Assembly: GCA_017510785.1 (NCBI GenBank)
Contig: JAFWMH010000037.1
Span: 1-64,000, forward strand
Reading direction: 5' to 3'
Length of the DNA: 64,000 nucleotides
DNA from: Atopobiaceae bacterium
GTDB taxonomy: Bacteria > Actinomycetota > Coriobacteriia > Coriobacteriales > Atopobiaceae
Shown one piece after another: positions 57 to 21,230 of the stretch; the first letter of the stretch is position 1; each line of letters starts with the position of its first letter. A program made the position numbers and the translations under genes. The notes beneath the pieces were generated by a model that made no database searches, was not told where the DNA came from, and worked only from the letters and a program-made list of their open reading frames with translations.

Positions 57-3000
57 CTATCCCGCGGACGAGCGGATGAACAGCTCGTATACCACGTCGC
101 CCACGCCGCTCACCTTCACGCAGCGCCGCTTGGAGAACGCGTGCTGCACATTGCCCAGCTTAGTGGCGATGCGCAGCGCTGGCACCTCGTTCGGAGCGGG
201 TTCGACGATGTGCCTATACAGGCCGTCGTAGGTACCGCCTGCATACTGCAGCAAGTCGCTGGCATTGTCGCATTCGAAGAGCTCCACCAACTCGTCGCTC
301 ACGAACAGAATCTTTCGGTCTCCCGCCGCCTCGTAGGCCACAATCGACCCAGGAAGACTCTCTGCCACGTCACGCGGCGTAAAGCCCGTCTGCGAGCGGT
401 ACTGTACCTCCATGGCGGAATCGTACTGTCGAATCGCGGACTTGCCCGAGAGCTTCGCCGCATAAAGTGCAGCGTCCGCCATGGTATATGCCGCGCGCAA
501 GTCTTTTGCTTGCTGAGGAACCGAAACGTAACCAATGGAGAGGGAGAGCGGGCACGGCGCCTCTTTACCGGCACGCACGAGACCGACGCGCAGCAGCGCA
601 TCGAGGTACTCGCCCATGCGTCGGGACTCGTCGCCGGGCATGAGCGCCATGAATTCGTCGCCGCCGTTGCGGCCAACGATGGCGCATGCGGGAAACGCCT
701 CGCGCACGCTGTGCGCAATGAGGCGCAAGCCCTCGTCGCCTGCCTCATGACCATATACAGAGTTGATGTGCTTGAAGTCATCCACGTCCATGAGCGCCAA
801 AGTATAGGGCTCGTCTTCGCGTGCTCGCAGATAATCCCTCACGGCGAGGTCGATGCCGCGGCGATTGAGCATCCCGGTGAGTTCGTCGGTGGAGCCCATT
901 TGCTCGAGCGTGTCCATGAGCCGCTTGTTTACGATGCGTGCGCTCACGAACGAGGCGACAGTTTGCAGCAGCCGAACTGAGTCTATGTCCTCCTCGAGCA
1001 TGTAATTATCTGCTCCAAGGTATCCAAGCAAATGACTACCATGGTAGAACGGCACGGCCAAAAGGTGGGTGATGCCCTGTCGCGTGAGCTGCCAGTGCAT
1101 GCGCTCGTCGGTCGTTCGCAGTTCCTCCACGTCGGGGATGAGCACGACGGGTTCTTGCTTGAGCAGCATTTCCCAGGTGTCGAACTCGGAATTGTCCAGG
1201 TCCTGAAGCGTGTCGATTTGAGGCTCAATGCCCTCGGCACACCACTCGAAGGTGTTCGAGGACGTGTTTTCGCCGCGCTCGAATACGTACAGACGTTCTG
1301 GATGAATAACCTCGCTCACCGACTCGAGCAAACTGTTCATGGCCTTGTTGTAGTCGGTTTCCGCGTTGAGCTCGTTGGCCATGCGAATAATGAGGTCGGA
1401 GGTATCGAGGCCCATGCGCATTTCGTCGCTGGCGTGCCGCTCGTCGTCTGCCAAGGTGAAGGCAAACACGCAGCATCCGTCTACCAGCGAAGGAGCGATG
1501 TTGAAGCTCAGCCAGTGCCCGGTTTCGGGACTAAATGCGATGTCGTGCAGACTCTTGCCAAGAATGGCAGCCTCATAGCAGTAGGGGAACCACATCTTGT
1601 TAGCGTCGTGCATCACCTCGAGGAAGGTATGCCCGACGAGCTCGTCCAGCTGACAATTGCTCCATTCGCAGTACAAGGTGCTAGCATAAACGTACTGGGC
1701 GTCCACCACCTCGTTGCCGGCCTCGTTGAGCACCACGCGGAACACGGCGTAGGCAACGGGCACGTCGCCGTACGTGCCGAGGCCAGAGCCCAGCATGGTA
1801 GGCATTGCCGTTACCATAAATGCCTTGGCTTCCTTTGTGGTCGCAATATGGCGAATGTAGAACTGATACCCCGAGCCGTACTCGAGCCGTCCGAATATGC
1901 GCTCCCAGGTATGCGAGAAACGCGACCTATCGGCCGCCACATAAAACTCGAGGTCGAAGGCTCGAGGCGGGATGTCCGTGGTGAGCAAATTTGAGTATGG
2001 CTGCGTAAGGACGCCCACGTTGCGAAGAAACTCGATGTAGGGGTCGTTGGCGCGCAAGATACGCCACGAGCGATTGCGCTCTTCCAAAATGGCAGTGGGC
2101 AGCTCCGTTAGCGGTGCCCAATCCGACGAGCGATTTTCCTTTGCCCCAACGTTGGAGAAGCTCGTCAGGCTCACCTCGTTCCAGTAGCGTGCCTCCTCGA
2201 AGGACTCGCGTCGCATGTCGTCGCTTTTGCCCTTGTGGGAGATAATATCCTGAAGACTGTTGGGCCTCGCGTAAAAGTAACCCTGGAGCATGTCGCAGCC
2301 GATGCTCGACAGGAATTCCGCCTGCTCTGCGGTTTCCACGCCCTCGGTAAGTGTGCCCACACCCAGCTCGGCGGCGGCCTTCACGACTCCGGCGAGAATG
2401 ATGCGGGACTTCTCGACTTCGGCGCTTCGCAGGAAGCCCATGTCGAGCTTAATGAGGTCGAAGTCGAACTCCTGCAGCGTGTTGAGCGACGAGTAGCCAC
2501 TGCCGAAGTCGTCCATCCACACTTCAAAGCCGGCCTCGTGCAAGGCGTTTATCTGCCTGCGCAAGAAAACTGGGTCGGAGGACGCCACCGATTCGGTGAG
2601 CTCGACCCTCAGCAGGTTACGTGGCAGGCCCGCGGCATCGGCACGCTTCGTGAGCTCGCGCACAAGATTGAGCTGCATGAGGTCGCGCAGCGAGAAGTTT
2701 ATGGACACGGGAACGATGGCGATGCCATGCTCCTGCTTGGTGCGCATGTCTTCAATAACGCAATCCACGATGTGAAGATCGAGCTTATGTAGGAGGCCGG
2801 CCTCTTCGAGGTCGGGTATGAACTGGTCGGGGAAGAGCTGACCGTACTCGGGGTCGATCCAACGCGCGAGAGCTTCCTCGTTGCAAATGTCGCTCGTAGA
2901 CGAACGCACCACGGCCTGGTAGAAGGGCCGAATCCATCGTTCCGCAATGGCTTGGTCGAGGCTTCCGAGCACGTGTTCGCGCAAATACGCGGCGGTTCTC

Positions 3001-3866
3001 ATCTTGTCGGTGAACCACGTAAGATGCGACTGCCACGTTTTGCGGTCGAGGTCGCACGCGGCCTTTGCGCGATCGAACCCAACCGAAACGATGTCGTCTT
3101 TGGGGTCGCACACATATGCGCCCACGCGTACGGGCGGGATGCGCTCGAAGCCCGACGCCTCGAAGTCGGCAAACACCGCCTCTACGCGTTTTTCAATCTG
3201 GTCTTCTCGTGAGTATGCATAAAAGTGATCCTCGGCGAAGCGCGAGCACGCCTCGCTGCCAAAGTGTTTGCGCAGCACGTCGGAAAACGAGCGAAGCAGT
3301 TTGTCGCCCTCGTCGCGACCGTAACGCGCGTTGAAACTCTTCATGCCCATGATGTCGAGCGCCAGCAAAACGGGACGCTCGTTGCGCGCGAAAAGCATCT
3401 GCGCGCCGATTCGCGCGAGTTCGTGGAAGCGCGACATGCCCGGTAGGCCCGTGAGCCAATCCACTGTTGCTTCGGGCGTGACCTCCACGATGAGCGCGTG
3501 AAATACCGGTCGACCGTTTGCGTCGTTTTGCACGAGCTTGCCGTACTCCAGGAGGGTTTTTATGCGCCCGGTTTTTGTTTTGGCGCGATAATACACGCGG
3601 TCGAAGCCGTCGCGAGTTCTTACCTGCCCCCAAATGCTGTCTTCGACGGCGTCGAGGTCGTCCTCGTACACGAGCTTCTTGTACGTGCCTTGCGTGAGCT
3701 CCATGAACTCCTCGAGGGATTCGCATTCCAGCATGGTGAGCGCGTGCCTGTTGGCATGGATTATCTCCTCGTCGCCATCGGCAAAGTGGGCGATAACACC
3801 GCTAGGCGCATTGTTGGTATCGATGAGGAGCTTTTGTTCGAAGAGCGGATGTGACGAGCTTCGCAC
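57..3866 (-). CDS. PAS-GGDEF-EAL-GAF-GGDEF cyclic di-GMP protein
   Basis: A 1269-residue signalling protein expected to make and/or break down cyclic di-GMP in the cytoplasm; no membrane segment is evident. Order of domains: N-terminal PAS-like region (about 1-130), a degenerate GGDEF (about 135-295, signature replaced by FAEDHF), an EAL domain (about 315-555), a PAS-like middle region, a GAF-like region (about 830-985) and an intact GGDEF (about 990-1155, RNGGDEF). The EAL domain keeps EEALARW, the Asn of INFS, ELTES, DDFGSGYSSL, KLDMGF, TEGVET and MLQGY, so it looks catalytically competent. Both a cyclase and a phosphodiesterase site therefore seem intact. The start is GTG, chosen because AGGCGGAGG lies about 8 nt upstream. 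A further ~100-residue tail follows the last GGDEF. Single-gene unit; direction of net activity cannot be read from sequence. Confidence 0.9.
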   Translation of the reverse strand: MRSSSHPLFEQKLLIDTNNAPSGVIAHFADGDEEIIHANRHALTMLECESLEEFMELTQGTYKKLVYEDDLDAVEDSIWGQVRTRDGFDRVYYRAKTKTGRIKTLLEYGKLVQNDANGRPVFHALIVEVTPEATVDWLTGLPGMSRFHELARIGAQMLFARNERPVLLALDIMGMKSFNARYGRDEGDKLLRSFSDVLRKHFGSEACSRFAEDHFYAYSREDQIEKRVEAVFADFEASGFERIPPVRVGAYVCDPKDDIVSVGFDRAKAACDLDRKTWQSHLTWFTDKMRTAAYLREHVLGSLDQAIAERWIRPFYQAVVRSSTSDICNEEALARWIDPEYGQLFPDQFIPDLEEAGLLHKLDLHIVDCVIEDMRTKQEHGIAIVPVSINFSLRDLMQLNLVRELTKRADAAGLPRNLLRVELTESVASSDPVFLRRQINALHEAGFEVWMDDFGSGYSSLNTLQEFDFDLIKLDMGFLRSAEVEKSRIILAGVVKAAAELGVGTLTEGVETAEQAEFLSSIGCDMLQGYFYARPNSLQDIISHKGKSDDMRRESFEEARYWNEVSLTSFSNVGAKENRSSDWAPLTELPTAILEERNRSWRILRANDPYIEFLRNVGVLTQPYSNLLTTDIPPRAFDLEFYVAADRSRFSHTWERIFGRLEYGSGYQFYIRHIATTKEAKAFMVTAMPTMLGSGLGTYGDVPVAYAVFRVVLNEAGNEVVDAQYVYASTLYCEWSNCQLDELVGHTFLEVMHDANKMWFPYCYEAAILGKSLHDIAFSPETGHWLSFNIAPSLVDGCCVFAFTLADDERHASDEMRMGLDTSDLIIRMANELNAETDYNKAMNSLLESVSEVIHPERLYVFERGENTSSNTFEWCAEGIEPQIDTLQDLDNSEFDTWEMLLKQEPVVLIPDVEELRTTDERMHWQLTRQGITHLLAVPFYHGSHLLGYLGADNYMLEEDIDSVRLLQTVASFVSARIVNKRLMDTLEQMGSTDELTGMLNRRGIDLAVRDYLRAREDEPYTLALMDVDDFKHINSVYGHEAGDEGLRLIAHSVREAFPACAIVGRNGGDEFMALMPGDESRRMGEYLDALLRVGLVRAGKEAPCPLSLSIGYVSVPQQAKDLRAAYTMADAALYAAKLSGKSAIRQYDSAMEVQYRSQTGFTPRDVAESLPGSIVAYEAAGDRKILFVSDELVELFECDNASDLLQYAGGTYDGLYRHIVEPAPNEVPALRIATKLGNVQHAFSKRRCVKVSGVGDVVYELFIRSSAG

Positions 3867-6268: not shown

Positions 6269-9200
6269 GTGCAAAACGTTGTTGCCCAGCTTCAAGCGAA
6301 CGCTCGCAAGTATGCCAACAAGCCCGCTCTTGTGTTTCACGAACAAACGTTGACGTATGCCCAGCTCAACGACCACTCGGAGCGCATCGCAACGGCTCTT
6401 CTTGCTCGCGGCGCACGTGCGGAAAAGGTTTATCCAATCCTTATGGAACGAAGTCCCGCCTATGTTGCCGCGCTCATGGGCGTTATGCGCGCGGGCGCTG
6501 CGGCGGCTCCTCTGAGCACGACCTATCCGCGGGAGCGCGTAGACCTCATCACGCGTGACTGTGGGGCCGACTTCGTGGTGGACGAGGCCTTTGTGCGGGA
6601 AGCCTTTGCCGCGGCGCCCGCATCGTACGTTTCGTCGGCATCGCGTGGCGAGGATGCATCACAAGTCGACCTCACCCCGTGCGGTGGGGTCGCAGCGGTT
6701 GCGCCGCACGAGCACGTCGAGCCCGGCGATGGTCCCTCGCCCGGCGACGGCCTCGCGTGTCCGCCGAATTCCGCAGCGCTCGTTATCTACACCTCCGGAT
6801 CGACGGGCCAGCCCAAAGGTATTATCCACGAGCATGCAGAGCTCGCCGCCGCCATAGAGCGCACGATGGGTGGGGGAGGCACGTACCCGCGCGCGGAGTC
6901 CGACGTACACCTCTCCATCACGCCATTTTCGTTCGTGGCCATGGTCGTCGACCTGCTCACGCCGTTGTGCGCGGGCAATACCGTCCACATTTTGAGCGAG
7001 GAGGAACGCCGCGAACCGGCTCGTATTGTTGAGTACATCGGCGGCCATGGCATTACTACCATGTTCGCGAGTCCGCAGCTTCTGCGACAGCTTCCGAAGC
7101 TACCCGCGTGCCTGCGCATGGTGGACGTGGGCGGCGAGCGTCTGAGCAACGTTGCGCCGGGCGACGTCGCGATACGAAACGCGTATAGCATGAGCGAAAT
7201 CGCAGGCACCGTGTTCGCGCGCGTGCTTGACCGCGCGTACGAAAACACCCCGCTGGGAGAGCCCCTGCCGGGCATCACTGCCTACCTCTTGGACGAGGAC
7301 GGCAATTCCGTTCCCGAAGGCGAGGAGGGCGAGCTCTATCTTGCCGGTCCTATGGCGCGCGGGTATCTTAATATGCCTGAACTTACGGCGCGCACCTTCC
7401 TGTCGAACCCGTTTGTCGCCGAAGACGGCCAGCCAAGGCTGTTGCGCACGGGCGACATGTTTGTTCACGACGCCGAGCTCGGCTATGTGTACGTCAACCG
7501 CCGCGACTGGATGGTTAAAATTAATGGCCAGCGCGTCGAGCTTGGCGAGGTGGAGGCGCGAATCGCTAGCCACCCGCAGGTGGGCGCCGCCGCATGTCGT
7601 TCCTTCACAGACAAAAGCGGCCAGACGTACCTCGCCGCGTACTATTCTCCGCAGCCCACACCCTCCGCGACGCCCGCGCAGCTCGCAGGACCCGCACGGC
7701 CCGCGCCATCCGTAGACTCCGCGACGCCCGCGCAGCCTGCGGGGCCAGCGTCCGCCGCGCAGCCGACGGATCCTAAGCAGCCCGCGCCTCCCGCGTGCCC
7801 CGCCACGGACGTCGAAGCCGAACCGGTGGACGACGCGCAACTGCGGGACTACCTGGCGAGCTCATTGCCAAGCTACATGATTCCCCGCTTCTTTGTGCGG
7901 CTGGACGAGCTGCCGCTCAACGCCAACGGAAAAATCGACCGCATGGCGTTGCCCGAGCCCAACGCCGATGCCTGGCGCACGGTTTACGCCGCCGCGTCGA
8001 ACGATCGTGAGCGGCTGGTGTGCGCGGCGTTCGAGCAGGCGCTCGAGCTTGACCGCATTGGCATGGACGACGATTTCCTCGCTTTGGGCGGGGACTCCAT
8101 TCGCGTGATGCGGCTCGTGTCGCTTCTTGGCGAAAAGGGCTTGGAGGTGGAGGCGCGTCAGGTGCTCGCGAACCGCACACCGCGCGCCTTGTGCGCGGCG
8201 CTCGACGAGGCCGCGAACACCGTTGCCGGGGATCTACCGCGTCTTGAGGACTATCCCCTCAGCCAAACGCAGCTCGGCATCTACGTTGAGTGCGCGGCGC
8301 GGCCCGACGAGCTCCTCTACCACATCGCCGGCTCGTTGCGTCTCGACGCTGCCGTGGATCCGACGCGTCTCGCGGACGCCCTTCGCGCGGCCGTCGACGC
8401 GCATCCGCAGCTCAAAGGCAGGCTGTTTTTGTCTGATGAAGGCATTCCGCGCATGCGGCGCAACGATGACGAGCCGGCCGCGGTGGAACTTGTGGAGCTC
8501 GCAGACGATGCGGCGTTAAGCAAGTTCCGCGCCTCGTTCATCGTGCCCTTCGACCTCGACGGCGGCGCCCTGTATCGTCTCGCGGTGGCGCGCACGTCCG
8601 ACGCGACGCGCCTGCTCTACGACTTCCACCACATTGTATTCGACGGTACGTCGCTTGGCATCCTTTTGCGCGACGCATCGGCGGCCTATGCTGGCGACAA
8701 GCCCGAGCTTGAGCAGTGGTCCGGCTACGAGGTTGCCCAAGAAGAGGCGATGCGCAGACAAGGTCCTTCCTATGGCCAGGCGCGTGACTTTTATCAAAAG
8801 AACTTTGGCGGTCTTGAGGTGGAGAGTCTGCCAATCCCTGACGCGCTCGACGCGCCGGGCGAGGGCCAAAGCGAGGTTGTCGTCCCCTGCGGACTTGGCG
8901 CAGAGGAACTAGAGGTCTACGCCGGGCAATGCAATACGACGGCCAACGTTGTGGCGATGGCGGCTTTTGCGCTCGCGGTTGGTGCCTACGCCAATGCTGA
9001 CGAGGCGCTCTTTACTACCGTTTACAACGGGCGTGGTGATGGTCGCATGGCGCGTACCGTTTCTATGCTGGTGAAGACCCTGCCCGTCTACGTCGCGTGG
9101 ACAAAAGAAACCGCGCCGGAACAGCTCTTCGCCGCGCTTCAGGGACAGCTCTTGGCATCGATGGCGCACGACGTATATTCGTTTGCCGAGGTATCGGCCG

Positions 9201-12200
9201 AGACGGGTATCACGTCGGACCTTTTGTTTGCGTATCAGGGCAACACCGACCTCGGTGACGAGCTGTGCGGCTCGGCGCTCGTGAGCGAGCCTTTCGAGTT
9301 GGACGAGACGGGCGGCGCCTTTACGGCTCAGCTCTGGCCAGAGGACGGGGAGCTTGCGCTGCATGTGAGCTTCCAGGCCGCTCGCTACACGCCGGGTTTC
9401 GCCGAGACGTTCGGGCGCACGTACGCTACCATCCTGCGCGGGTTGGTTGGGGTTGCGGGCCGGGACGACACCGGGCTGGCCGACGCTGCCGCGAGCCAGG
9501 ACGACGCTGGCCAGGACGGCGCTGGACGGGACGGCGCTGGACGGGACGAAGGCGCGGCTCAGCCGAGTGCCGCAACCCAAGGCCCTGCTGCGCGCGTCGT
9601 GGATATCCCGCTCGTGGACGATGCGACCCTTGCCATTTTGGATTCCTTCAACCAAACCGACGTTCCCTACAACACCGAGGCCACGGTGCTCTCCCTCTTC
9701 GAGGAGGCCGCTGCGACGCATCCCGAGAACGCTGCAGTAGTCTACCAAGACGCGCAGCTCACCTATGCAGAGCTCGACGCGGCCTCCGACGAGCTGGCAG
9801 CGCGCATCGCTGCGACCGGCGCTGGGTTGGACGACGTCGTGTCCATCCTCATTCCGCGCGGGCTCTGGATGACCGTTGCCCCACTCGCTGCGATGAAGGC
9901 CGGCTGTGCCTATCAGCCGCTCGACCCGACGTATCCGCCAGAGCGCTTGAGCTTCATGGTGAAGGACGCCAGCACCGCCGTGCTCGTAACAACGCCCACC
10001 CTTCGCGAACGCGTGCAGGGCTACGACGGCTCTGTCGTGTTGCTTGACGGTGACCCGGCGACACTCTTGGCCGGTGGCTCGGTGCGCACGGGCGACGGTA
10101 CCGCCGCGTGCACGGCCGACGTTGCCGCCATGAGCGTGGCCGGCGGCCCCGCCGCAACGCGCGAGCTTGTATCTGCGCTGCCCAAGCCCACGGCCGACTC
10201 GTGCATGATTCTTCTCTACACCTCCGGCTCCACCGGCGTGCCCAAGGGCGTTCAACTTACGCACGGTAACCTCGTGTGCTTTATTGCATGGTATCATCGC
10301 CTCTTCCAGCTTGGCGCCGAGGATCGCGTGGGTGCCTACGCGTCCTTCGGCTTCGACGCGAACATGATGGACATGTACTCCGCGCTCACGGCGGGTGCTG
10401 CCGTCGTCATCGTTCCCGAGGAGCTGCGGCTCGAGATTTTGGGCATGGCCAACTACCTCGACGCCCGCGGGGTAACGCACCTCTTTCTTACCACGCAGGT
10501 GGGACGACAATTCGTTTTGTACACCCGTCCGACTCGCCTGCGCTATCTCCTCGTGGGTGGCGAAAAGCTCGTTACGGTGGATCCGCCCGAGGGTTACGGA
10601 CTCTACAACATATATGGACCCACCGAGGCGACTGTGTGCATTACGACGTATCATGTAACATCGCGCGAGGAGAACATCGCCGTTGGCCCCGCTCTCGATA
10701 ACGTGCGCCTCTACGTAATGGACGCCCATGGCCGGCGCGTGCCGCCCGGCGCCTGCGGCAACCTGCTTGCGGCGGGCCCGCATGTGGGCATTGGATACCT
10801 TAATCGAGCAGACAAAACCGCAGAGGTGTTTGTTCGCAACCCGTTCTTCGAAGAAGGCGGGGAGGACGATGGTGAGCTGCGCCTGGGAATGGGTGGTCGT
10901 GGTCTCAACGATCTCGTGGACTCTCGGGAAGGCACGCCCACGCCGCACTTGGAGCGGGCGTATTACACGGGCGACGTGGTGCGTTACCGCGCGGACGGCG
11001 CACTCGAGTTCGTGGGCCGCGCCGACGGCCAGGTGAAGATCCGCGGCTTCCGCATCGAGCTCGCCGAGGTGGAGGGCGTCGTGCGGGAGTTCGGCGGCAT
11101 AACCGACGCCACGGTGGCAGCCTTCGAAAAACCCTCCGGCGGCAAGTACGTCGCGGCCTACGTCGTCTCCGACGAGACCGTAGACCAGGCCGAGCTCGCC
11201 GCGTTTATCCGCGAGCGCAAGCCGCCCTACATGGTGCCCGAGGTCATCATGCAAATTGACGCCATCCCACTCAACCAAAACGGCAAGGTTAACCGCCGCG
11301 CACTGCCCGAGCCCGTGCATGCCGAGCGCGAGCACGTTGGGCCGGCAACCGAGGCACAGCGCCGCATCTTCGCGTGCGCAGCAGAGGCCCTCGGCCACGA
11401 GGACTTCGGCGCAAACACCGACCTTTACGAAGCCGGGCTCACCTCCATTAGTTCCATCCAACTCAACGCGCTTATCTCCCGCGAGTTCGGTGTGGACCTG
11501 CGCACGTCCGACCTGCGCGCCAATCCTACGGTGATTGCGCTCGAAAGCTTCCTGCAAAGCCACGCCGACGTTGCCGAGGAGGCCTATGAGTCCATCGTTA
11601 TGCGCAATCCCACGGCCGCCTGCCCGCTTACCGCCAGCCAGCAGGGCGTTTTTGTGGACTGCGTGGCGAATCCCGGCAGCACGATGTACAACATTCCCTA
11701 CTTGCTGCGCATCGGCTCCGGCGTCGACCTCAAGCGGCTTGCCCAGGCGGTTAGCGTGGCGGTCGCAGCGCATCCGTGCCTGGACGTGCGACTCGCGCTC
11801 GACGACGACGGCGAGGTGCGCCAACGCCTTGCGAACGATGCCGAGCCGTTTGTGCCGCCGATTGTTGAGGGGTTGAACACTCCGACGCTCGTTCGTCCGT
11901 TCGACCTTTTGGGCGCGCGCCTTTTCCGCGTGGAGATTCATCGCACCGCCGACGGAACGTACCTCTTCATCGATGCCCACCACATCGTGGCCGACGGCAC
12001 CTCGCTCGCCGTGCTCTTAGACGACATAAACCATGCCTATGCGGGCGAGGCCATCGAGCCGGAAGCCTATAGCATGCTGGACGTCGCCTTAGCAGAGAAT
12101 GACCTGCGAAAGAGCGAGGCTTACACGGAGGCCGAGGCGTTCTACCGCGAAACGTATGCCGACTGCCAGCCCACGTCCGACCTTGCGCACGATCACGAGT

Positions 12201-15200
12201 TGTCGCCCGCCCGCTGTGCCTCGTTGCTCCGCACGAGTGCGGACGTCTCGCCTGCTGCGCTCGAGGCTCGCTGCAAGGAGCTTGGCGTGACGCCCAACGC
12301 GTTCTTCGTGGGTGCGTTCGGCGCCGTGCTCGCGCGGTATCGTTTCCAGCGCGAGGCTACCTTCGTCACGATTTATCATGGTCGCAATGAGGCGAAGCTT
12401 GCGCGTTCGGTGGGCATGTTCGTAAAAACGCTGCCCGTGCGCGTGGATACGTCGCTTGCCGCGGCAGACTATTTTGCTGCTGTGCGCGACCTCTTGATGG
12501 GCAACATGGACCACGACATCTTCCCGTTTGCCGAAGTCAACCGCATGTGTGGCATCGATCCCACCACGCTTTTGGCGTATCAGGGGTCGAACTTTAACGT
12601 GCGGGAAATCTGCGGCGAGCCTGCCGAGCACATGCTGTTGGAACTCGATGTGGCCAAGGAGCCGCTGAGCATGTCTGTTGCGGTGGACGGCGATGCGCAC
12701 GTTTACGACCTGCAGTATCGTGCCGACCTCTACGACGAAACGACGGCCGGCTGGTTCCTCGATAACCTCGAACTCGCGCTCAACCAACTTATTGAGGGAC
12801 GCGATCCCGCCGACCTCCAGTTGCTCTTCGACGAGGCGCCGTGCATGGTGGACGTGCCTGCGCACGCAGATAAAACCTTCGTGGACCTCTTTGCCGAGTC
12901 GGTCGCGGCCTATCCGGCAAACGTTGCCGTGCGCGATAGCGAAAGCTCGCTCACCTACGCCGAGCTCGACGCGGCCTCCGCTGCAGTGGCGGCGCGTCTG
13001 CGCCAAACGGGCTTTGGGCCAGAGCAGTATGCCTGCGTGCTGGCCGGTCGCACGAAGGAGTTCGTGGTGGGCGTTATCGGCGTCATGCGTGCCGGCGGTG
13101 CGTACGTGCCCATGGACCCGGACTATCCCACCGACCGCTTGGAGTACATGCTGGAAAACAGCGGCGCGCGGCATCTTTTGCTCATGCCCGAGTATGCCGA
13201 CCTCGTGAGCAGCTTCGATGGCGTTCGCGTGGACCTTTCCAACGTCGCGGGTTTGTGCGCTGCGTCCTCCATTTCTTCGGGCGCGGGTGAGCGAGCGGGC
13301 TCGATCGGGCGAGCAGCCGCGGGGACGGGTTTGTCTGCTGCGCCTGCCACTTCTTCGGGCGCGGGCGCCGACGCCGACGCTGCCGGGCGAACGGACGTGA
13401 CCGCGGACGCGAACTTGTCTCCTGCGCCTACGGCGGCAGAGCTCGAGTCCTGGCGTCCGAGTCCGCGCAACGTGGCCTACATGATTTACACCTCCGGCTC
13501 CACCGGCAAGCCCAAGGGCGTGATGCTTGAGCATCGAAACCTCATGAACCTCATCGAGCACCTTCAGGGTTTCCAAAAGCCCACGCTGGGCGACCTGTAC
13601 GGCGAGTTCTCCAGCTTCTGCTTCGACGCCTCGGTGCACGACCTCTTCGTGCCCTTTACCGTGGGTGCTGGTCTCTACATCATTCCTGCTGAGGTACGTC
13701 AGGACGCCGTCGCGGTGTGTCAAACTTTCCGGCGCGAGCCCATCACGATTGCAACTATGCCGACTCAGATGGGCGAGCTCGTGGTGGACCAGCTTGAGGG
13801 CGATTGTGCCCTGCGCATGATCTTCCTCGGCGGAGAGAAGTTCAAGCGGTTCTACGATCGTCCCTACGTGGTCGTGAACGGCTATGGTCCCACCGAGAAC
13901 ACCGTGGAGTCTACCACCTTTGTGGTGGATAAGCCGCAGGAGAACATTCCCATTGGCCGTTCCATCCTCAACGTGCGTAGCTATGTGGTGGACGAGCAGA
14001 TGCGGCGCGTGCCCGTGGGGGTGCCCGGCGAACTCGTGCATGCGGGTAGGTCGGTTGCGCGCGGGTATCATAAACTGCCCGAGAAGACTGCGGCGGCTTT
14101 CGTAGAGAACCCCTTTGCCACGTGCGAGGACGAGCGCGTGATGTATCGTACGGGCGATCAGGTGCGCATGCGGGGCGACGGCAACATGCTCTATATTGGG
14201 CGCATCGACAACCAGGTGAAGATTCGCGGATACCGCGTGGAGCTTGGCGAGATTGAGGGCGCCATGCTTTCGTACGATGGTGTGGACGAGGTTGCCGTTA
14301 TTGCCTCGGACCTCAACGGCACCACTCACATCGTGGGCTATTGGACGGGCGTGGACGTTGGCGAGGACGTGTGGCACGAGTTCCTCGCACCGCTGATACC
14401 CGACTACATGATGCCGAGCTTCTTTGTGCACTTGGATGCCATGCCCGTTACTTCTGGTGGAAAGATCGACCGCCGTGCATTGCCGGCGCCTGGGCAAAGT
14501 GTTGTGGAAGCGGGTGGCTACGTCGCGCCGACCACCGACCTCGAGCGGCAGCTGTGCGAGATGTTCCAGAAGGCTTTGGGTCGTGAACGCGTGGGCTTGG
14601 ATGACGATTTCTTTGAGCTGGGTGGTACGTCGCTGAGCGCGAGCAAGGTGGCGGTGATGTGCTTCAATGCGCAGCTGCCCATCGTGTATGCCGACATCTT
14701 CGAGCATCGCTGCGTGCGCGGGCTGGCGACCATGGTGCAGGGTGATGCACCGGATGCAGATGCGGCCGGTGAGTCCGTCGCAGCGTTTGGGAATGCGGCT
14801 GAACGGGTGTCAACAAACGACCAACGTTCGGCTGCGGCGCAACCCGCGTCCACGGCGCAAAGCGCACCCGCAATGCAGCCCGGTTCTACGGCGCGGTCTG
14901 GTTCCGCAACGCAGGATGGTTCCACGGCACAGGCCGTGCCATCAGCGCAGTCCGCTTCCGCGGAACAGGCCACTGCTACAGCGCAAGACTCTCCCGCAAC
15001 ATGGGGCAGCGACCGAATGATTTTGTCTGCTACAACAACTGGTGCCGGGCACGACCTCACTGCGGCGCCAGACGCTTACGACTACTCAAGCATCAATCGG
15101 CTGCTCGCGGAAAACGTCTCGGAAAACGTGGACTACGTGGCGGACGAGGGCCTCGGCGACGTGCTCCTTACGGGCGCCACGGGCTTTTTGGGTATTCACG

Positions 15201-16258
15201 TGCTGCGCGATTTTTTGGAGACTCACGAGGGTCGCATTTGGTGCGTCGTGCGCAAGGGGAGGTTCCAAAGCGCGGAAAGCCGACTCGCGCACCTGCTTAT
15301 GTATTACTTCGCGAAGCCGTATACCGAGCTCTTTGGCGAGCGTATTCTGTGCGTTGAGGCAGATATCGCCAATCCCGCAGATGTTGCGTCGCTCGACCGA
15401 ATCCCCTTCCGCACGCTGGTGAACTGCGCCGCTTGCGTAAAACACTTTGCCGCTGGCGATGAACTCGATCGCGCCAACGTTGCGGGCGTGAGTAACTTGG
15501 TGGACCTCTGCGCGCGTGGTCGCAGACGCTTGGTGCACATATCGACCATATCTACGGCGGGGGAGAGCTTCAAGGGTAAACCCGATCCCTCCCATCGTTT
15601 GACCGAGGCCGAGCTGTACTTTGGACAGCGCATCAGCAACGCGTACGTGCGCAGCAAGTTCCTCTCGGAGCGTTGCGTGTTGCAGGCCGTGGCGGATGGG
15701 CGCATCGAGGGCAAGATTATTCGCGTGGGCAACCTCATGAGTCGTGCGTCGGACGGGGAGTTCCAAATCAACAGTATTACCAACGGCTTCTTGCGTTTGC
15801 TGCGCGGTTACGTCATTGTGGGCGGTTATCCCGTGAGTCAGATGGATGTGGAGAATGAGTATTCTCCTATAGACTCCGTGGCGTCTGCCGTGTTGAGGCT
15901 GGGTAGGGCTTCGTCACGTTTTTCGGTTTTCCATGCGTGCAACAATCACAAGGTGCAGATGGGCGACGGAATATTCGCGCTGCGCGAACTCGGCTTCGGC
16001 ATTCGCGTTGTGGGCGATGACTACTTTGCCAAGATGCTTGCGGACTATAGCGCCAAGCACGAGGGCTCGGATGCGGTAAGCGGGCTCATCGCATACGCCA
16101 CGCATAATGGACAGAACGCCTCCTACCTAGGCTACGACAACACCTTTACCACTAAGGCCCTGTATCGTTTGGGCTGGAAGTGGCCCATTACGGATGATGC
16201 CTACCTCAAAGGCACCATAGAGAAGTTGGACGAGCTCGGCTTCTTTGAGGACGACTAG
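6269..16258 (+). CDS. Three-module nonribosomal peptide synthetase with terminal reductase (A-T-C-A-T-C-A-T-R)
   Basis: A 3329-residue assembly line. GTG start chosen for AAAGGAGG five bases upstream; an in-frame TTG at 6209 is less likely. Domains: A1 (1-570, YTSGSTGQPKG at 174, closing NGKIDRMAL), T1 (LGGDS, Ser610), C1 (HHIVFDG at 787), A2 (about 1120-1690, YTSGSTGVPKG at 1317, YGPTEATV), T2 (AGLTS, Ser1726), C2 (HHIVADG at 1904), A3 (about 2195-2740, YTSGSTGKPKG at 2407, YGPTENTV), T3 (LGGTS, Ser2788) and a thioester-reductase domain (GATGFLG at 2969, catalytic-type YVRSK). The R domain should release the chain by NAD(P)H reduction as an aldehyde or alcohol. A1 has no upstream C domain, so it loads the starter. 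Its core-4 motif reads FVAMVVD where amino-acid A domains have FDAxxxx, so the amine-binding Asp is Val; a non-amino-acid starter is likely. Hand-aligned codes are DAMFLGIVC(K) for A2 (Leu-like) and DAHTFGGVE(K) for A3 (partly Glu-like). Four low-complexity inserts sit between or inside domains. No MbtH, PPTase or exporter is adjacent. Confidence 0.93.
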   Translation: MQNVVAQLQANARKYANKPALVFHEQTLTYAQLNDHSERIATALLARGARAEKVYPILMERSPAYVAALMGVMRAGAAAAPLSTTYPRERVDLITRDCGADFVVDEAFVREAFAAAPASYVSSASRGEDASQVDLTPCGGVAAVAPHEHVEPGDGPSPGDGLACPPNSAALVIYTSGSTGQPKGIIHEHAELAAAIERTMGGGGTYPRAESDVHLSITPFSFVAMVVDLLTPLCAGNTVHILSEEERREPARIVEYIGGHGITTMFASPQLLRQLPKLPACLRMVDVGGERLSNVAPGDVAIRNAYSMSEIAGTVFARVLDRAYENTPLGEPLPGITAYLLDEDGNSVPEGEEGELYLAGPMARGYLNMPELTARTFLSNPFVAEDGQPRLLRTGDMFVHDAELGYVYVNRRDWMVKINGQRVELGEVEARIASHPQVGAAACRSFTDKSGQTYLAAYYSPQPTPSATPAQLAGPARPAPSVDSATPAQPAGPASAAQPTDPKQPAPPACPATDVEAEPVDDAQLRDYLASSLPSYMIPRFFVRLDELPLNANGKIDRMALPEPNADAWRTVYAAASNDRERLVCAAFEQALELDRIGMDDDFLALGGDSIRVMRLVSLLGEKGLEVEARQVLANRTPRALCAALDEAANTVAGDLPRLEDYPLSQTQLGIYVECAARPDELLYHIAGSLRLDAAVDPTRLADALRAAVDAHPQLKGRLFLSDEGIPRMRRNDDEPAAVELVELADDAALSKFRASFIVPFDLDGGALYRLAVARTSDATRLLYDFHHIVFDGTSLGILLRDASAAYAGDKPELEQWSGYEVAQEEAMRRQGPSYGQARDFYQKNFGGLEVESLPIPDALDAPGEGQSEVVVPCGLGAEELEVYAGQCNTTANVVAMAAFALAVGAYANADEALFTTVYNGRGDGRMARTVSMLVKTLPVYVAWTKETAPEQLFAALQGQLLASMAHDVYSFAEVSAETGITSDLLFAYQGNTDLGDELCGSALVSEPFELDETGGAFTAQLWPEDGELALHVSFQAARYTPGFAETFGRTYATILRGLVGVAGRDDTGLADAAASQDDAGQDGAGRDGAGRDEGAAQPSAATQGPAARVVDIPLVDDATLAILDSFNQTDVPYNTEATVLSLFEEAAATHPENAAVVYQDAQLTYAELDAASDELAARIAATGAGLDDVVSILIPRGLWMTVAPLAAMKAGCAYQPLDPTYPPERLSFMVKDASTAVLVTTPTLRERVQGYDGSVVLLDGDPATLLAGGSVRTGDGTAACTADVAAMSVAGGPAATRELVSALPKPTADSCMILLYTSGSTGVPKGVQLTHGNLVCFIAWYHRLFQLGAEDRVGAYASFGFDANMMDMYSALTAGAAVVIVPEELRLEILGMANYLDARGVTHLFLTTQVGRQFVLYTRPTRLRYLLVGGEKLVTVDPPEGYGLYNIYGPTEATVCITTYHVTSREENIAVGPALDNVRLYVMDAHGRRVPPGACGNLLAAGPHVGIGYLNRADKTAEVFVRNPFFEEGGEDDGELRLGMGGRGLNDLVDSREGTPTPHLERAYYTGDVVRYRADGALEFVGRADGQVKIRGFRIELAEVEGVVREFGGITDATVAAFEKPSGGKYVAAYVVSDETVDQAELAAFIRERKPPYMVPEVIMQIDAIPLNQNGKVNRRALPEPVHAEREHVGPATEAQRRIFACAAEALGHEDFGANTDLYEAGLTSISSIQLNALISREFGVDLRTSDLRANPTVIALESFLQSHADVAEEAYESIVMRNPTAACPLTASQQGVFVDCVANPGSTMYNIPYLLRIGSGVDLKRLAQAVSVAVAAHPCLDVRLALDDDGEVRQRLANDAEPFVPPIVEGLNTPTLVRPFDLLGARLFRVEIHRTADGTYLFIDAHHIVADGTSLAVLLDDINHAYAGEAIEPEAYSMLDVALAENDLRKSEAYTEAEAFYRETYADCQPTSDLAHDHELSPARCASLLRTSADVSPAALEARCKELGVTPNAFFVGAFGAVLARYRFQREATFVTIYHGRNEAKLARSVGMFVKTLPVRVDTSLAAADYFAAVRDLLMGNMDHDIFPFAEVNRMCGIDPTTLLAYQGSNFNVREICGEPAEHMLLELDVAKEPLSMSVAVDGDAHVYDLQYRADLYDETTAGWFLDNLELALNQLIEGRDPADLQLLFDEAPCMVDVPAHADKTFVDLFAESVAAYPANVAVRDSESSLTYAELDAASAAVAARLRQTGFGPEQYACVLAGRTKEFVVGVIGVMRAGGAYVPMDPDYPTDRLEYMLENSGARHLLLMPEYADLVSSFDGVRVDLSNVAGLCAASSISSGAGERAGSIGRAAAGTGLSAAPATSSGAGADADAAGRTDVTADANLSPAPTAAELESWRPSPRNVAYMIYTSGSTGKPKGVMLEHRNLMNLIEHLQGFQKPTLGDLYGEFSSFCFDASVHDLFVPFTVGAGLYIIPAEVRQDAVAVCQTFRREPITIATMPTQMGELVVDQLEGDCALRMIFLGGEKFKRFYDRPYVVVNGYGPTENTVESTTFVVDKPQENIPIGRSILNVRSYVVDEQMRRVPVGVPGELVHAGRSVARGYHKLPEKTAAAFVENPFATCEDERVMYRTGDQVRMRGDGNMLYIGRIDNQVKIRGYRVELGEIEGAMLSYDGVDEVAVIASDLNGTTHIVGYWTGVDVGEDVWHEFLAPLIPDYMMPSFFVHLDAMPVTSGGKIDRRALPAPGQSVVEAGGYVAPTTDLERQLCEMFQKALGRERVGLDDDFFELGGTSLSASKVAVMCFNAQLPIVYADIFEHRCVRGLATMVQGDAPDADAAGESVAAFGNAAERVSTNDQRSAAAQPASTAQSAPAMQPGSTARSGSATQDGSTAQAVPSAQSASAEQATATAQDSPATWGSDRMILSATTTGAGHDLTAAPDAYDYSSINRLLAENVSENVDYVADEGLGDVLLTGATGFLGIHVLRDFLETHEGRIWCVVRKGRFQSAESRLAHLLMYYFAKPYTELFGERILCVEADIANPADVASLDRIPFRTLVNCAACVKHFAAGDELDRANVAGVSNLVDLCARGRRRLVHISTISTAGESFKGKPDPSHRLTEAELYFGQRISNAYVRSKFLSERCVLQAVADGRIEGKIIRVGNLMSRASDGEFQINSITNGFLRLLRGYVIVGGYPVSQMDVENEYSPIDSVASAVLRLGRASSRFSVFHACNNHKVQMGDGIFALRELGFGIRVVGDDYFAKMLADYSAKHEGSDAVSGLIAYATHNGQNASYLGYDNTFTTKALYRLGWKWPITDDAYLKGTIEKLDELGFFEDD

Positions 16259-16328: not shown

Positions 16329-16440
16329 GCGAGCCCCGGACCCACGCGCCGAAGGCATGGCTCCGCGCGCCGAAGGACACGGCGACGCGAGCCCCGGACC
16401 CGCGCGCCGAAGGACACGGCGACGCGAGCCCGGCCCTACG
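16329..16440. repeat. 37-bp GC-rich tandem repeat between convergent genes
   Basis: The unit starting GCGAGCCCCGGACC recurs at 16329, 16387 and 16424; 16387-16423 is a complete 37-bp unit, and the block GCGCGCCGAAGGACACGGCG is repeated at 16365 and 16402. It lies in the 177-bp gap between the NRPS stop and the convergent oxidoreductase stop. Confidence 0.8.
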
Positions 16441-17590
16441 CGCCAAAGAGTTCGGCGGTGCGCGTCATGCGCTGGATGACCTTCACGCCAAAGGGACAGC
16501 GCGACTCGCAGCCTCCGCAGGCAACGCATTCGTCCGCATGATGCTCAAGCGCAAGATAATGGTCGCGCACGAGGGCTGGTACGGGATTGCCTTTGTCTAC
16601 TTGGGCCTGCGCAAGGTCGCTGAACTTGTTGACCTGCGCCACACTTATGCCTACCGGACAAGGTGCGCAATGGCCGCAATACGTGCACAGCCCGCTCACA
16701 GGATTGCGTGGTGCCGAAGCCAGCACGCTCGCGTAGTCGCGCTCGTCCTCGGTGGCGTCTTCGTAGCCCACACAATCTTCCAGCTCGCTCACGCTTCCGT
16801 AACCCACCAGCACACTGGCGACTGCCGGACGCGTAAGCGCGTAATGGATACACTGCGTCGTGGTGAACGGCACGCCGAACGGGCTTCTCTCGGGATTGAG
16901 CAAATTGCCACCGGCGAAAGCCTTCATAACGGTGAGCCCGATGTCAGCACGCTCGCAGGCGCGATAGAGTTCCATTCGTCCCTCGTCGAAGCCGTCGAGA
17001 TTGGCGTCGGGTCCACTCGCGAGCGTTTCGATGTCGAAGGACGCGGGCTGCATGTCGTAGGCGGGGTTAATAGAGAAAAGCATCATCTCGACGGCGCCCT
17101 GCTCTACGGCATATGCGCCGCACACGGCGCTGTGGGTCGACATGCCGATGTGCTTGATAACACCTTGCGCTTTGAGCGACTCGATGTAATCGCGGTATGT
17201 GCCGTCCAAACAACGCTTGAGCTCGTCCAAATCGTCGATGTAGTGCATCATGCCCAGCTCAACGTGGTCGGTGTGGAGGCGATTCAGCAGGTCGTCGAAA
17301 GCGACCTTGCACTTTTCGACATTGCGTGTGCGCACGTACTGGCCGTTTTGCCATGTGGATCCAACGTGGCCCTGCACTATCCAGTGGTCAGGGGTCTCGG
17401 CGATTGCGTCGCCTAAGCGTGTGCGGACCTCGGGGTCGCTCATCCAGCAATCGACGATATTCACGCCTAGTTCAGCCGCTCGAACGACGAGCGCGTGGGC
17501 CTCTTCGGCGCTCATGCGGTCGAGCCATTCTCCGCCAAAGCCGACTTCAGAAACCTCTAGCTCCGTTTGTCCCAAACGCCGATAGTTCAT
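16436..17590 (-). CDS. Aldo/keto reductase-like protein with two C-terminal [4Fe-4S] motifs
   Basis: A 384-residue protein: an aldo/keto reductase TIM barrel (1-290) followed by a ferredoxin-like tail with CTYCGHCAPCPVG (about 328) and CVACGGCESRCPFG (about 365). This resembles COG1453 ferredoxin-AKR proteins. The start at MNYRRLGQ is preferred because GAGAGG precedes it; an upstream in-frame ATG would add 10 residues. Two of the four classic AKR catalytic residues look altered: the usual DTAxxYG reads VDCWMSDP (Tyr missing) and the ATK strand reads VQGHV (Lys missing), while Asp and His (MMHYID) remain. It may act through its clusters as an electron-transfer enzyme rather than as a classic reductase. 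It is convergent with the NRPS and need not be related to it. Confidence 0.85.
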   Translation of the reverse strand: MNYRRLGQTELEVSEVGFGGEWLDRMSAEEAHALVVRAAELGVNIVDCWMSDPEVRTRLGDAIAETPDHWIVQGHVGSTWQNGQYVRTRNVEKCKVAFDDLLNRLHTDHVELGMMHYIDDLDELKRCLDGTYRDYIESLKAQGVIKHIGMSTHSAVCGAYAVEQGAVEMMLFSINPAYDMQPASFDIETLASGPDANLDGFDEGRMELYRACERADIGLTVMKAFAGGNLLNPERSPFGVPFTTTQCIHYALTRPAVASVLVGYGSVSELEDCVGYEDATEDERDYASVLASAPRNPVSGLCTYCGHCAPCPVGISVAQVNKFSDLAQAQVDKGNPVPALVRDHYLALEHHADECVACGGCESRCPFGVKVIQRMTRTAELFGA

Positions 17591-18016
17591 GGCACCTCTC
17601 TTTCGTTGTGTATGATGCATGCATTATAGCAGCGCCTCGGGTTGGTTTTATACCCCGTGATCGCGGCGCGCGATTGTCATTTGGCTGATTCGCTGCAATC
17701 GTTCATTCGAAAAAACACGGGTAGGAGGCCCTATGACTAGACAGCATTGCGCGGAATGCATGCCTTCGAACGGGTGGTGACGTAAGCGGTCGGGATGGCC
17801 CGAGCCAGTTGCCGCTGCGTGAGTTCTGAAGCGCCTTGGGGAGCTTAACACCGAAAAAGGCCCCCGGCGAGGTTCGTTGGCTCCCCATTGGCTATGCCCG
17901 CCAGCTCGGAGCGCGGGCTGACGCTCCGCCACAGGTCCCGTGCCCGCCAGCTCGGAGCGCGGGCTGGTGCTCCGTCCGCCCACCAGGCTGGCAGCCCGCA
18001 TCCTCCGCTCGCAGTC
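17591..18016. other. Gene-free stretch with 33-bp direct repeat
   Basis: Between the starts/stops of two minus-strand genes. It contains two near-identical 33-bp copies, at about 17894 and 17940 (core CCCGCCAGCTCGGAGCGCGG), each able to form a CGGAGCG/CGCTCCG hairpin. I see no coding potential. Confidence 0.6.
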
Positions 18017-18955: not shown

Positions 18956-19837
18956 TCACTCGCACAAAACCACGAGCTCGTCAATAAGCGCTTGCATGGG
19001 TTTCGTGGGCATGATCTTGCGCCAAAGAATCTTGTGGACAGCCTCAACGCGCGGCGCGAGGGGAAGGAAGCGCAAGTTTCCGGCATCGCCTTCCCCGTCT
19101 ATCAGTCCCCCATACGTAAACTCGACCCCTACGCCCGCGTGTACAAGATACCTTGAGTTGAGGGGCAAACCATGGGTCGCTACGACTTGTCGTTCGAGCT
19201 GTACGCGTGCTTGCCCCGCCCATTGTCGCAACGTGTGGCTTAAAGCATGTGGCGGCACTATCAGCGAACGTTCCAGCAAGGCCTCTGCACGCACCGCATC
19301 GAGCGCCGCAAGAGGGTCGTCGGAACGCACCACGATGCCCCACTCGTCGCGTATGGGTAGTTCGAGCTGATTGAACTCGGCGTTCTCGCCCGAGTTGCAG
19401 TCCAGCAAAAAGTCGTAAAAGCCGCGTGCGAAGTGCTCCTTGAGGTCCGCCGACGTGCCGTCGTGCACATCAAACGTCACGCCAGGATACCGTTTGCGCA
19501 CGCGCGCGCAAGCAGTTGCGACGATTGCGAACGCTCGCGTTTCTCCCGCGCCGATGTGTATGGTGCCGACTACGCTACTTTCGGGCATGGCCACCTCGTC
19601 TTCGGCCTTCTCTGCTAGGGCGAGGATGTCGAGGGCGTAGCGGTAGAGCACTGCGCCGCGATCGGTCGGCTCGATGCCGGCCCTGCCTCGCGTAAAAAGC
19701 GGGACTCCCATTTCCGTTTCCAGTTGTGCGAGTTGGCGCGAGAGCGTGGGTTGCGTAACGTGCAAAACCTTCGCGGCGTTCGAGATGGATCCTTCGTCTA
19801 CAACAGCGACGAAATACTTTAGAACTCGCAGCTCCAT
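18956..19837 (-). CDS. LysR-family transcriptional regulator
   Basis: A 293-residue regulator with the N-terminal LysR winged helix-turn-helix (1-60, DEGSISNAAKVLHVTQPTLS) and a two-lobe effector domain (about 90-290). It is divergent from the MFS transporter gene, with about 127 bp between starts. That gap carries a perfect T-N11-A LysR box (19887-19909). By the usual logic of this family it represses itself and activates the transporter when its ligand, probably the transported acid, is present. The ligand cannot be named from sequence. Confidence 0.93.
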   Translation of the reverse strand: MELRVLKYFVAVVDEGSISNAAKVLHVTQPTLSRQLAQLETEMGVPLFTRGRAGIEPTDRGAVLYRYALDILALAEKAEDEVAMPESSVVGTIHIGAGETRAFAIVATACARVRKRYPGVTFDVHDGTSADLKEHFARGFYDFLLDCNSGENAEFNQLELPIRDEWGIVVRSDDPLAALDAVRAEALLERSLIVPPHALSHTLRQWAGQARVQLERQVVATHGLPLNSRYLVHAGVGVEFTYGGLIDGEGDAGNLRFLPLAPRVEAVHKILWRKIMPTKPMQALIDELVVLCE

Positions 19838-19886
19838 GGTGCCTCCCCATGCCTATGTATATGCCTATGGAGCATGGATAATTGCT

Positions 19887-19909
19887 CAATATAGCCATTG
19901 GAAATATTG
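19887..19909. promoter_or_regulatory. LysR-type operator (T-N11-A)
   Basis: CAATAT and ATATTG form a perfect inverted repeat separated by 11 nt, fitting T-N11-A. It is midway between the divergent lysR and MFS starts. Two copies of ATGCCTATG 12 bp apart (19849 and 19861) lie beside it, closer to lysR, and may be a second binding region. Confidence 0.7.
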
Positions 19910-19964
19910 ACCCCACCATACCAAAATAGAGATGGAGATAAAAGCCTCGAGAAGGAAGTTGACC

Positions 19965-21230
19965 GTGGAAAAGAAACATTTGGACATTCGGTACGTGGTG
20001 GTGGCGGTTGCCGTCTGCCTCATGGCTTGTGGAACCATGGGACTTCCCAACGCGTATGGAGTTTTCTATACGCCTATGTCGGACGCGCTTGGGGCCGGAC
20101 GTGGCGCCGTTACTATGCACATGTCCATTTCCAACCTCGTCATCGGGCTGTTCACGCCCATCGTGGCGCGCTCGCTTGCGCACGGACACAAGATGCGCAA
20201 CGTGCTGATGGTGGCAACTGCGCTTGTTCTTGTCTCCGGCGTGGTCATTGCGTTCGCGCCGAACACGTTGATTATGGACGTGGCGGCGGTTGTGCGTGGC
20301 GTTGGCTTTGCGGCGGTGGCCATGTTCATCATTACCCTCTATATTGGTAACTGGTTCCAAAAGGGCCGCGGCACCATTACGGGCATCGCGCTTTCGGGCT
20401 CGGGCATCGGATCGGCCATCGCGAGTCCCATCGTTACCGCCTGCATTCAGAACTTTGGGTATCAGGTGGCCTACCTTGGCTTCGTCGCCTTCACGGTGAT
20501 AACAATTCTGCCGGTTATGCTCTTTTGTCCGCTCACGCCCGAAGAGGTTGGGCTCAAGCCGTACGGTGCGGACGAAGTTGACGAGAATCCCGAGGATAAC
20601 AAGGCCACCGCGCCGGCCAGCGAGGACCTGGGCCTCAAGCTCGTACTTCTCTCGCCGACCTTCATTGTGCTGGTGGTGTTCGTAATCGCCATCGTGCTCA
20701 TCACCACGCTCTCGGGCCACATGGCCTCGCTCGCCCAGGATTATGGCTACAGCGCGCAGGTGGGAGCGCTGCTCCTCTCGGCGTCTATGGTGGGCAACGT
20801 CGTGAGCAAGTTTGCCCTTGGTGCCATCGCCGACCGCATTGGCGCCTTCCGCGCGTGCGTAATCTCGCTCGTCACGACGCTCGTCGGCTTGCTGCTCATC
20901 CTGTTCAACTTTGGTGGCCAAGCGGCGCTTTTGGCCTCGGGCTTCCTTTACGGCACGTGCTTCTCCATTGGGTCGCTGGGCATATCGTTGCTCACTCGCT
21001 ACATCTTTGGCGACGACCAGTACGCGGACGCCTATTCCACCATTTCGCTTGTGACCAGCGTCGCCTCTGCCTTGGGCGTTGTCGCAGCAGGACTTGCCTA
21101 CGATGTGACAGGCTCGTACGTGGCGCCCATCATTGCGGGCATCGTGCTCGTTGGCGTTGCCGGCGGATGCTTGGCCTACCTGCGCTGGCGCGTTACCACA
21201 CGTCCCTGGGAAAAGCGCGTGCGTGCGTAG
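19965..21230 (+). CDS. MFS transporter, OFA/monocarboxylate-like
   Basis: A 421-residue membrane protein with about twelve hydrophobic helices and a central cytoplasmic loop rich in acidic residues (around GADEVDENPEDNK). The N-terminal half has the MFS loop features and the GxxxG-rich helices of the oxalate/formate antiporter family. It probably moves a small carboxylic acid across the inner membrane. The GTG start at 19965 has AAGGAAG 7 nt upstream; an ATG at 19932 would give 432 residues but has only a weak ribosome site. It shares an upstream region with the LysR gene and is followed after 77 bp by an aldo/keto reductase, suggesting uptake plus reduction. Confidence 0.85.
   Translation: MEKKHLDIRYVVVAVAVCLMACGTMGLPNAYGVFYTPMSDALGAGRGAVTMHMSISNLVIGLFTPIVARSLAHGHKMRNVLMVATALVLVSGVVIAFAPNTLIMDVAAVVRGVGFAAVAMFIITLYIGNWFQKGRGTITGIALSGSGIGSAIASPIVTACIQNFGYQVAYLGFVAFTVITILPVMLFCPLTPEEVGLKPYGADEVDENPEDNKATAPASEDLGLKLVLLSPTFIVLVVFVIAIVLITTLSGHMASLAQDYGYSAQVGALLLSASMVGNVVSKFALGAIADRIGAFRACVISLVTTLVGLLLILFNFGGQAALLASGFLYGTCFSIGSLGISLLTRYIFGDDQYADAYSTISLVTSVASALGVVAAGLAYDVTGSYVAPIIAGIVLVGVAGGCLAYLRWRVTTRPWEKRVRA

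Follow-up and report, generated by a model that had tools for sequence, protein, structure and literature searches.

A single-protein three-module NRPS with a non-Asp loading domain and terminal reductase in ruminant Coriobacteriia, predicted to make a capped dipeptide aldehyde

Capped peptide aldehydes such as spumigin, aeruginosin and ruminopeptin are already known, and in NRPSs of the ruminopeptin type the cap is added by a starter condensation (C) domain. Spumigins are released reductively as peptide aldehydes and inhibit serine proteases (PMC3765200, PMC10143770). Peptide aldehydes of gut bacteria have been reported to inhibit host proteases, and N-acyl tails to stabilise them, such tails being thought one thing that prevents cyclisation (PMC8210680). 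Among adenylation (A) domains, hydrophobic residues at position 235 (GrsA numbering, used throughout) mark non-amino substrates (PMC11253843, PMC10949194), and a hydrophobic or small residue there has been described for domains activating alpha-keto and alpha-hydroxy acids (PMC11253843, PMC5238615, PMC10949194). In the open-licence papers that we searched, including a survey of rumen BGCs, we found no description of the NRPS family considered here, and none of a capped aldehyde product from Coriobacteriia.

The gene lies in a 64-kb stretch of Atopobiaceae DNA (64,000 nucleotides; the window) as an uninterrupted open frame at 6269-16258 (+), which encodes 3329 amino acids from GTG to stop. The start at 6269 is supported by AAAGGAGG upstream of the GTG and by an ATG at the homologous position in most orthologues. 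Pfam identified three AMP-binding, two Condensation and three PP-binding domains and one terminal NAD_binding_4 domain, giving the order A-T-C-A-T-C-A-T-R in a single protein that begins with A1 and has no C domain ahead of it; the domain order and coordinates of the original prediction were thus right. The loading domain A1 (6269..7993) is followed by the carrier T1 (8015..8203, LGGDSI, Ser codon 8096) and by C1 (8246..9463, HHIVFDG at 8627-8647), the second module consists of A2 (9686..11338), T2 (11366..11578, GLTSI, Ser codon 11444) and C2 (11621..12796, HHIVADG), and the third of A3 (12911..14503) and T3 (14546..14758, LGGTSL, Ser codon 14630), all on the forward strand. The terminal thioester reductase R (15161..16255, +) has the Gly loop TGATGFLG at its start, HISTIST at 15536 and the motif YVRSK, whose Tyr (15644) and Lys (15656) are the catalytic pair that had been singled out for checking. 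Catalytic motifs are present in every domain, and the intact A/T/C repeats ending in an NAD(P)-binding reductase with a Gly-rich loop and Tyr/Lys, without a thioesterase, are the features of reductive release. Pfam found no ketoreductase (KR), NRPS epimerisation, formyltransferase or thioesterase domain in the protein; matches to Epimerase, 3Beta_HSD and RmlD reflect the short-chain reductase fold of R and were not taken as separate domains. The best whole-protein NCBIfam match was the aureusimine synthetase AusA (NF047350), at 1242.5 bits and below the cut-off of 2500. The protein is about 260 amino acids longer than its orthologues owing to Ala/Ser/Thr/Pro/Gly-rich stretches absent from them, some within A domains (residues 121-165, 460-518, 1066-1104, 1269-1293, 1539-1554, 2329-2387 and 2836-2928 in the alignment with orthologues).

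The three A domains differ at the residue that binds the alpha-amino group. In A1, core 4 is TPFSFVAMVVD, and HMMER pairs its FSFVAMVVD with FSFDGSALD of the first A domain of LgrA, placing Val opposite Asp. An alignment of 74 A domains gave the same result, with Val at 235 (codon 6935-6937), Met at 325 (codon 7190-7192), where core 5 reads YSMSE (RNAYSMSEIA) with Met in place of the usual Pro, and the Lys517 equivalent at codon 7931-7933. The replacement of the Asp and the altered core 5 had been claimed from the letters alone and are thus confirmed; no Asp aligned with 235 when A1 was compared with solved domains, and every orthologue likewise has Val there. A2 (FDANMMD, code DAMFLVIVC) and A3 (FDASVHD, code DAHTILGVE) retain Asp235, as had also been proposed, and have the YGPTE core 5 and Lys517 of alpha-amino-acid A domains, the last extending their codes to DAMFLVIVCK and DAHTILGVEK. 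The Asp is therefore missing in A1 only, where core 5 is altered too. The A1 code is VAVFVVAGT at 235, 236, 239, 278, 299, 301, 322, 330 and 331, and the changes W239V, I330G and C331T relative to GrsA should open its pocket. None of the published A-domain codes checked matches that of A1, the published code of cereulide synthetase serving as yardstick. In A3, E331 offers a lead, and no more, towards a last residue that is polar or basic; in the same alignment D331 is found in EntF, whose annotation gives serine as its substrate.

To place A1 by fold, we used an AlphaFold model of the A1 of an orthologue (L055), without the low-complexity insert and built from 20 diverse alignment rows (pLDDT 87.5); a first model of the window A1 built with six close sequences reached pLDDT 39.6 and was set aside. 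In both the sequence and the orthologue model, A1 is closer to NRPS A domains (LgrA, GrsA) than to acyl-CoA ligases. Foldseek and VIA gave nearly equal scores for all NRPS A domains against the model, and the fold for this reason does not separate substrate classes; StsA and McyG were absent among the matches listed.

Within the window's genus, the gene was complete or largely so in 7 of 16 genomes (G000, G001, G004, G007, G008, G009 and G014), and the A1 codes matched in the six where A1 was on a usable contig. The orthologue records are ruminant MAGs (RUG440, RUG14419, RUG11733, RGIG9633 from yak jejunum and RGIG5870 from sheep jejunum) labelled Atopobiaceae, Coriobacteriaceae or actinobacterium. 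Five orthologous A1 domains were 71-80% identical to that of the window, with dN/dS of 0.10-0.18 (0.08-0.19 for A3), and all six copies had Val235, Met325 and a core 5 of YSMSE or YGMSE. Such invariance at this divergence and dN/dS argues that Val235 is not a chance change, and both changes in A1 are fixed under purifying selection. The A1 and A3 codes hardly vary among the orthologues (that of A3 being invariant), whereas A2 differs at 301, 322, 330 and 331; the cap and the C-terminal residue thus look fixed while the middle residue changes. Two NRPS copies, one in the genus (L039:5971-13144, G014) and one outside it (L088:8180-18765, G212), are split over two or three frames and are either assembly errors or decaying genes.

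We searched for relatives of A1 in the family, order, class and phylum, sampling the larger groups, and found them outside the genus in the same family (G060 and G024), in family f6 (G160) and in family f2 (G212 and G338). The full order A-T-C-A-T-C-A-T-R was seen in G060 and, over three frames, in G212; in G160 and G024 a contig end truncates the NRPS, and that of G338 reads A-T-C-A-T-C followed by a further frame. All these domains have Val235 except that of G338, which has Ala, and their core 5 carries Met or Leu. Matches at the phylum level (E ~1e-76) were no stronger than the matches of the profile to ordinary A2 domains and were not counted, and plasmid records gave only generic NRPS matches at 33% identity. 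In a maximum-likelihood tree, 15 A domains of the non-Asp starter type, drawn from three families of Coriobacteriales, formed one clade with support 100/97, within which, by a warning of the tree tool, some long branches meet. The clade takes in the window's genus, the relatives from other families and A domains of separate A-T-C proteins, and is separate both from acyl-CoA ligases and from the Asp-type A domains that occur in these same proteins. The starter code remains near constant at 37-38% identity (VAVFVVAGT against VA-FVTCGT), an argument for selection acting to keep a single substrate class. The non-amino-acid type proposed for A1 in the original prediction is supported by the lack of Asp235 and by this clade of conserved non-Asp domains. 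The view that the architecture is unfamiliar in the lineage should be given a broader scope, since the architecture is found again both within the genus and among other Coriobacteriales. As far as we found, a starter-domain family shared across related gut bacteria has apparently gone unrecognised.

The C1 domains of the window's genus group with those of G060, G160 and G212 (support 97/96), with that of G338 outside; since they group as the A1 domains do, A1-T1-C1 appears to be an old, conserved module. The A2 domains of the same genomes group as well, whereas the A3 of the window's genus belongs to a different lineage, and the loading unit together with the second module looks like an old shared part whose last module has been exchanged. 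The separate A-T-C proteins of the clade, about 980-1000 amino acids long, occur in several genomes of the genus (L091:6324-9272, -; also L090, L092 and L094); their A domain has Val235 and core-5 YAMSE, and the C domain at their end is highly divergent in type. Another A domain, near position 7203 of L077 (G019), has core-4 FVATEMV and core-5 YGSTE; it sits on a long branch and is not part of the loading clade.

Val235, the core-5 Met and the clade together lead us to assign A1 to the non-amino class. It most likely loads a hydrophobic carboxylic acid that lacks an alpha-amino group, the likeliest candidates being simple acids of the aliphatic or arylalkyl kinds abundant in the rumen. Among possible starters we favour such a simple acid over an alpha-keto acid, and that over an amino acid. 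Activation of an alpha-keto acid, which without a ketoreductase would give an alpha-ketoacyl dipeptide aldehyde, would fit the hydrophobic residue found at 235 in alpha-keto acid A domains, Val in PksJ, CesA and PyrG (PMC5238615), and the Met that StsA has at the otherwise conserved core-5 Pro and needs for activity (PMC11253843); both features occur in A1 and in all five orthologues. We nevertheless regard this as unlikely: the alpha-keto loading modules described in the papers that we consulted contain a KR, which is absent here, and the rest of the code differs (VAVFVVAGTK in A1 against VGMWNGASVK). The core-5 Met is moreover not specific to keto acids, as a YGMTE-type core 5 occurs also in acyl-CoA ligases. 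The bolder form of the idea, that A1 represents the first of a new substrate class among loading domains, one that takes an alpha-keto acid left unreduced, with the alpha-ketoacyl cap and C-terminal aldehyde of the product acting as two electrophiles and the family spread through the Coriobacteriia of animal guts, seems to us unlikelier still.

Val235 alone does not prove a non-amino substrate, since McyG has Val there and yet binds and activates L-Phe (PMC11253843), and the domains nearest to A1 in fold and sequence are amino-acid A domains. If A1 did activate an alpha-amino acid, the product would be an uncapped tripeptide aldehyde able to cyclise. This is made improbable by the altered core 5, by the restriction of the change to the protein's starter position, by the separation of the starter clade from all Asp-type A domains in these proteins, and by the presence in the genome of another three-module NRPS ending in R, the A1 of which is of the Asp type. 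The presence of Klebsiella NpsA, a binder of a 3-hydroxyanthranilate analogue, among the sequence and structural matches of A1 could point to an aryl acid of the anthranilate or benzoate type, with the aldehyde condensing with the aryl amine to a pyrrolobenzodiazepine-like product. NpsA scored far below the amino-acid A domains in the A1 search, however; A1 has RNAYSMSEIA in place of the aryl core-5 motif of DhbE, QQVxFMAEGL (PMC11253843), and a three-module chain puts the aldehyde two residues away from the cap, so that we consider this reading highly improbable. Gene context does not name the starter: among the neighbours of the NRPS, no gene for substrate supply or resistance is carried along from genome to genome.

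With a simple hydrophobic acid as the favoured starter, the gene probably encodes a self-contained assembly line for an N-capped dipeptide aldehyde. A1 would adenylate the acid and load it onto T1, C1 would form the amide cap by coupling it with the amino acid from A2-T2, C2 would pass the chain onto the residue loaded by A3-T3, and the R domain would reduce the thioester to a C-terminal aldehyde, possibly further to the alcohol. The originally predicted product, an acyl starter plus two amino acids released as aldehyde or alcohol, agrees with this scheme, in which the identity of the acid and the oxidation state are predicted from sequence. The cap removes the free amine behind cyclisation to imines and pyrazinones; the aldehyde should therefore persist and may act as a protease inhibitor. 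The genome contains two candidate phosphopantetheinyl transferases, one of Sfp size (a 241-aa frame), and no MbtH protein was found in it.

The second NRPS, outside the window (L005:8419-17565, contig C28 of G000), is likewise A-T-C-A-T-C-A-T-R, and each of its three A domains has the Asp. A MatE transporter gene lies immediately upstream of it; relatives occur in most genomes of the genus, including a four-module one in G005. This second NRPS should yield a free-amine tripeptide aldehyde able to cyclise, whereas the capped product predicted for the window NRPS should be unable to, and it is a natural uncapped comparison. Around the window NRPS we found no conserved gene cluster: its neighbours are unshared save for a LysR regulator and MFS transporter pair in three genomes. 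The pair is near the NRPS in the window (18956-21230) and in G014 (L039:1736-3981), on opposite sides, and in G002 (L043:5921-10001) it sits close to what is left of the A1 region, a short and broken piece, which suggests gene loss there. An aldo/keto reductase fused to a 4Fe-4S ferredoxin domain (16436-17620, -) is convergent with the NRPS and was not found beside its orthologues. The window also encodes two large EAL and GGDEF proteins of cyclic di-GMP turnover (57-3866, -, and 29301-32435, +); PAS and GAF domains accompany one of them, and a receiver domain the other.

One uncultured ruminant bacterial genome thus holds three-module reductase NRPSs of both the capped and the uncapped type, so that the part played by the cap can be tested directly. 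The combination of [VA] at 235 with Y[GSA][ML]SE in core 5 provides a genome-mining signature for capped aldehydes in Coriobacteriia. Among known systems, the spumigin synthetase and the aeruginosin synthetases of Microcystis/Planktothrix type, all cyanobacterial, resemble the window NRPS in a starter without an alpha-amino group loaded by an A domain and followed by amino-acid modules (PMC3765200, PMC10143770), but they have a ketoreductase in the loading module, several proteins and tailoring genes, whereas here there is one protein without a KR and without tailoring genes. Ruminopeptin and the dipeptide-aldehyde NRPSs of gut anaerobes share the gut origin, the reductase release, the dipeptide aldehyde and a possible N-acyl cap (PMC12327764, PMC8210680); the window NRPS differs in its A-T loading module and the lack of an N-terminal C domain. 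AusA and PznA are also single-protein NRPSs with a terminal R domain (PMC8210680), but have two modules, both of the amino-acid type, and a product that cyclises to a pyrazinone. The initiation module of LgrA, for linear gramicidin, has the A domain nearest to A1 in sequence and fold, at about 30% identity, with Asp in an FDG core 4 and a formylation domain where A1 has Val and no such domain. The alpha-keto acid A domains of StsA, CesA and PksJ share the hydrophobic residue at 235, and StsA also the core-5 Met (PMC5238615, PMC11253843); they differ from A1 in the remainder of the code and in the KR, which does not follow A1.
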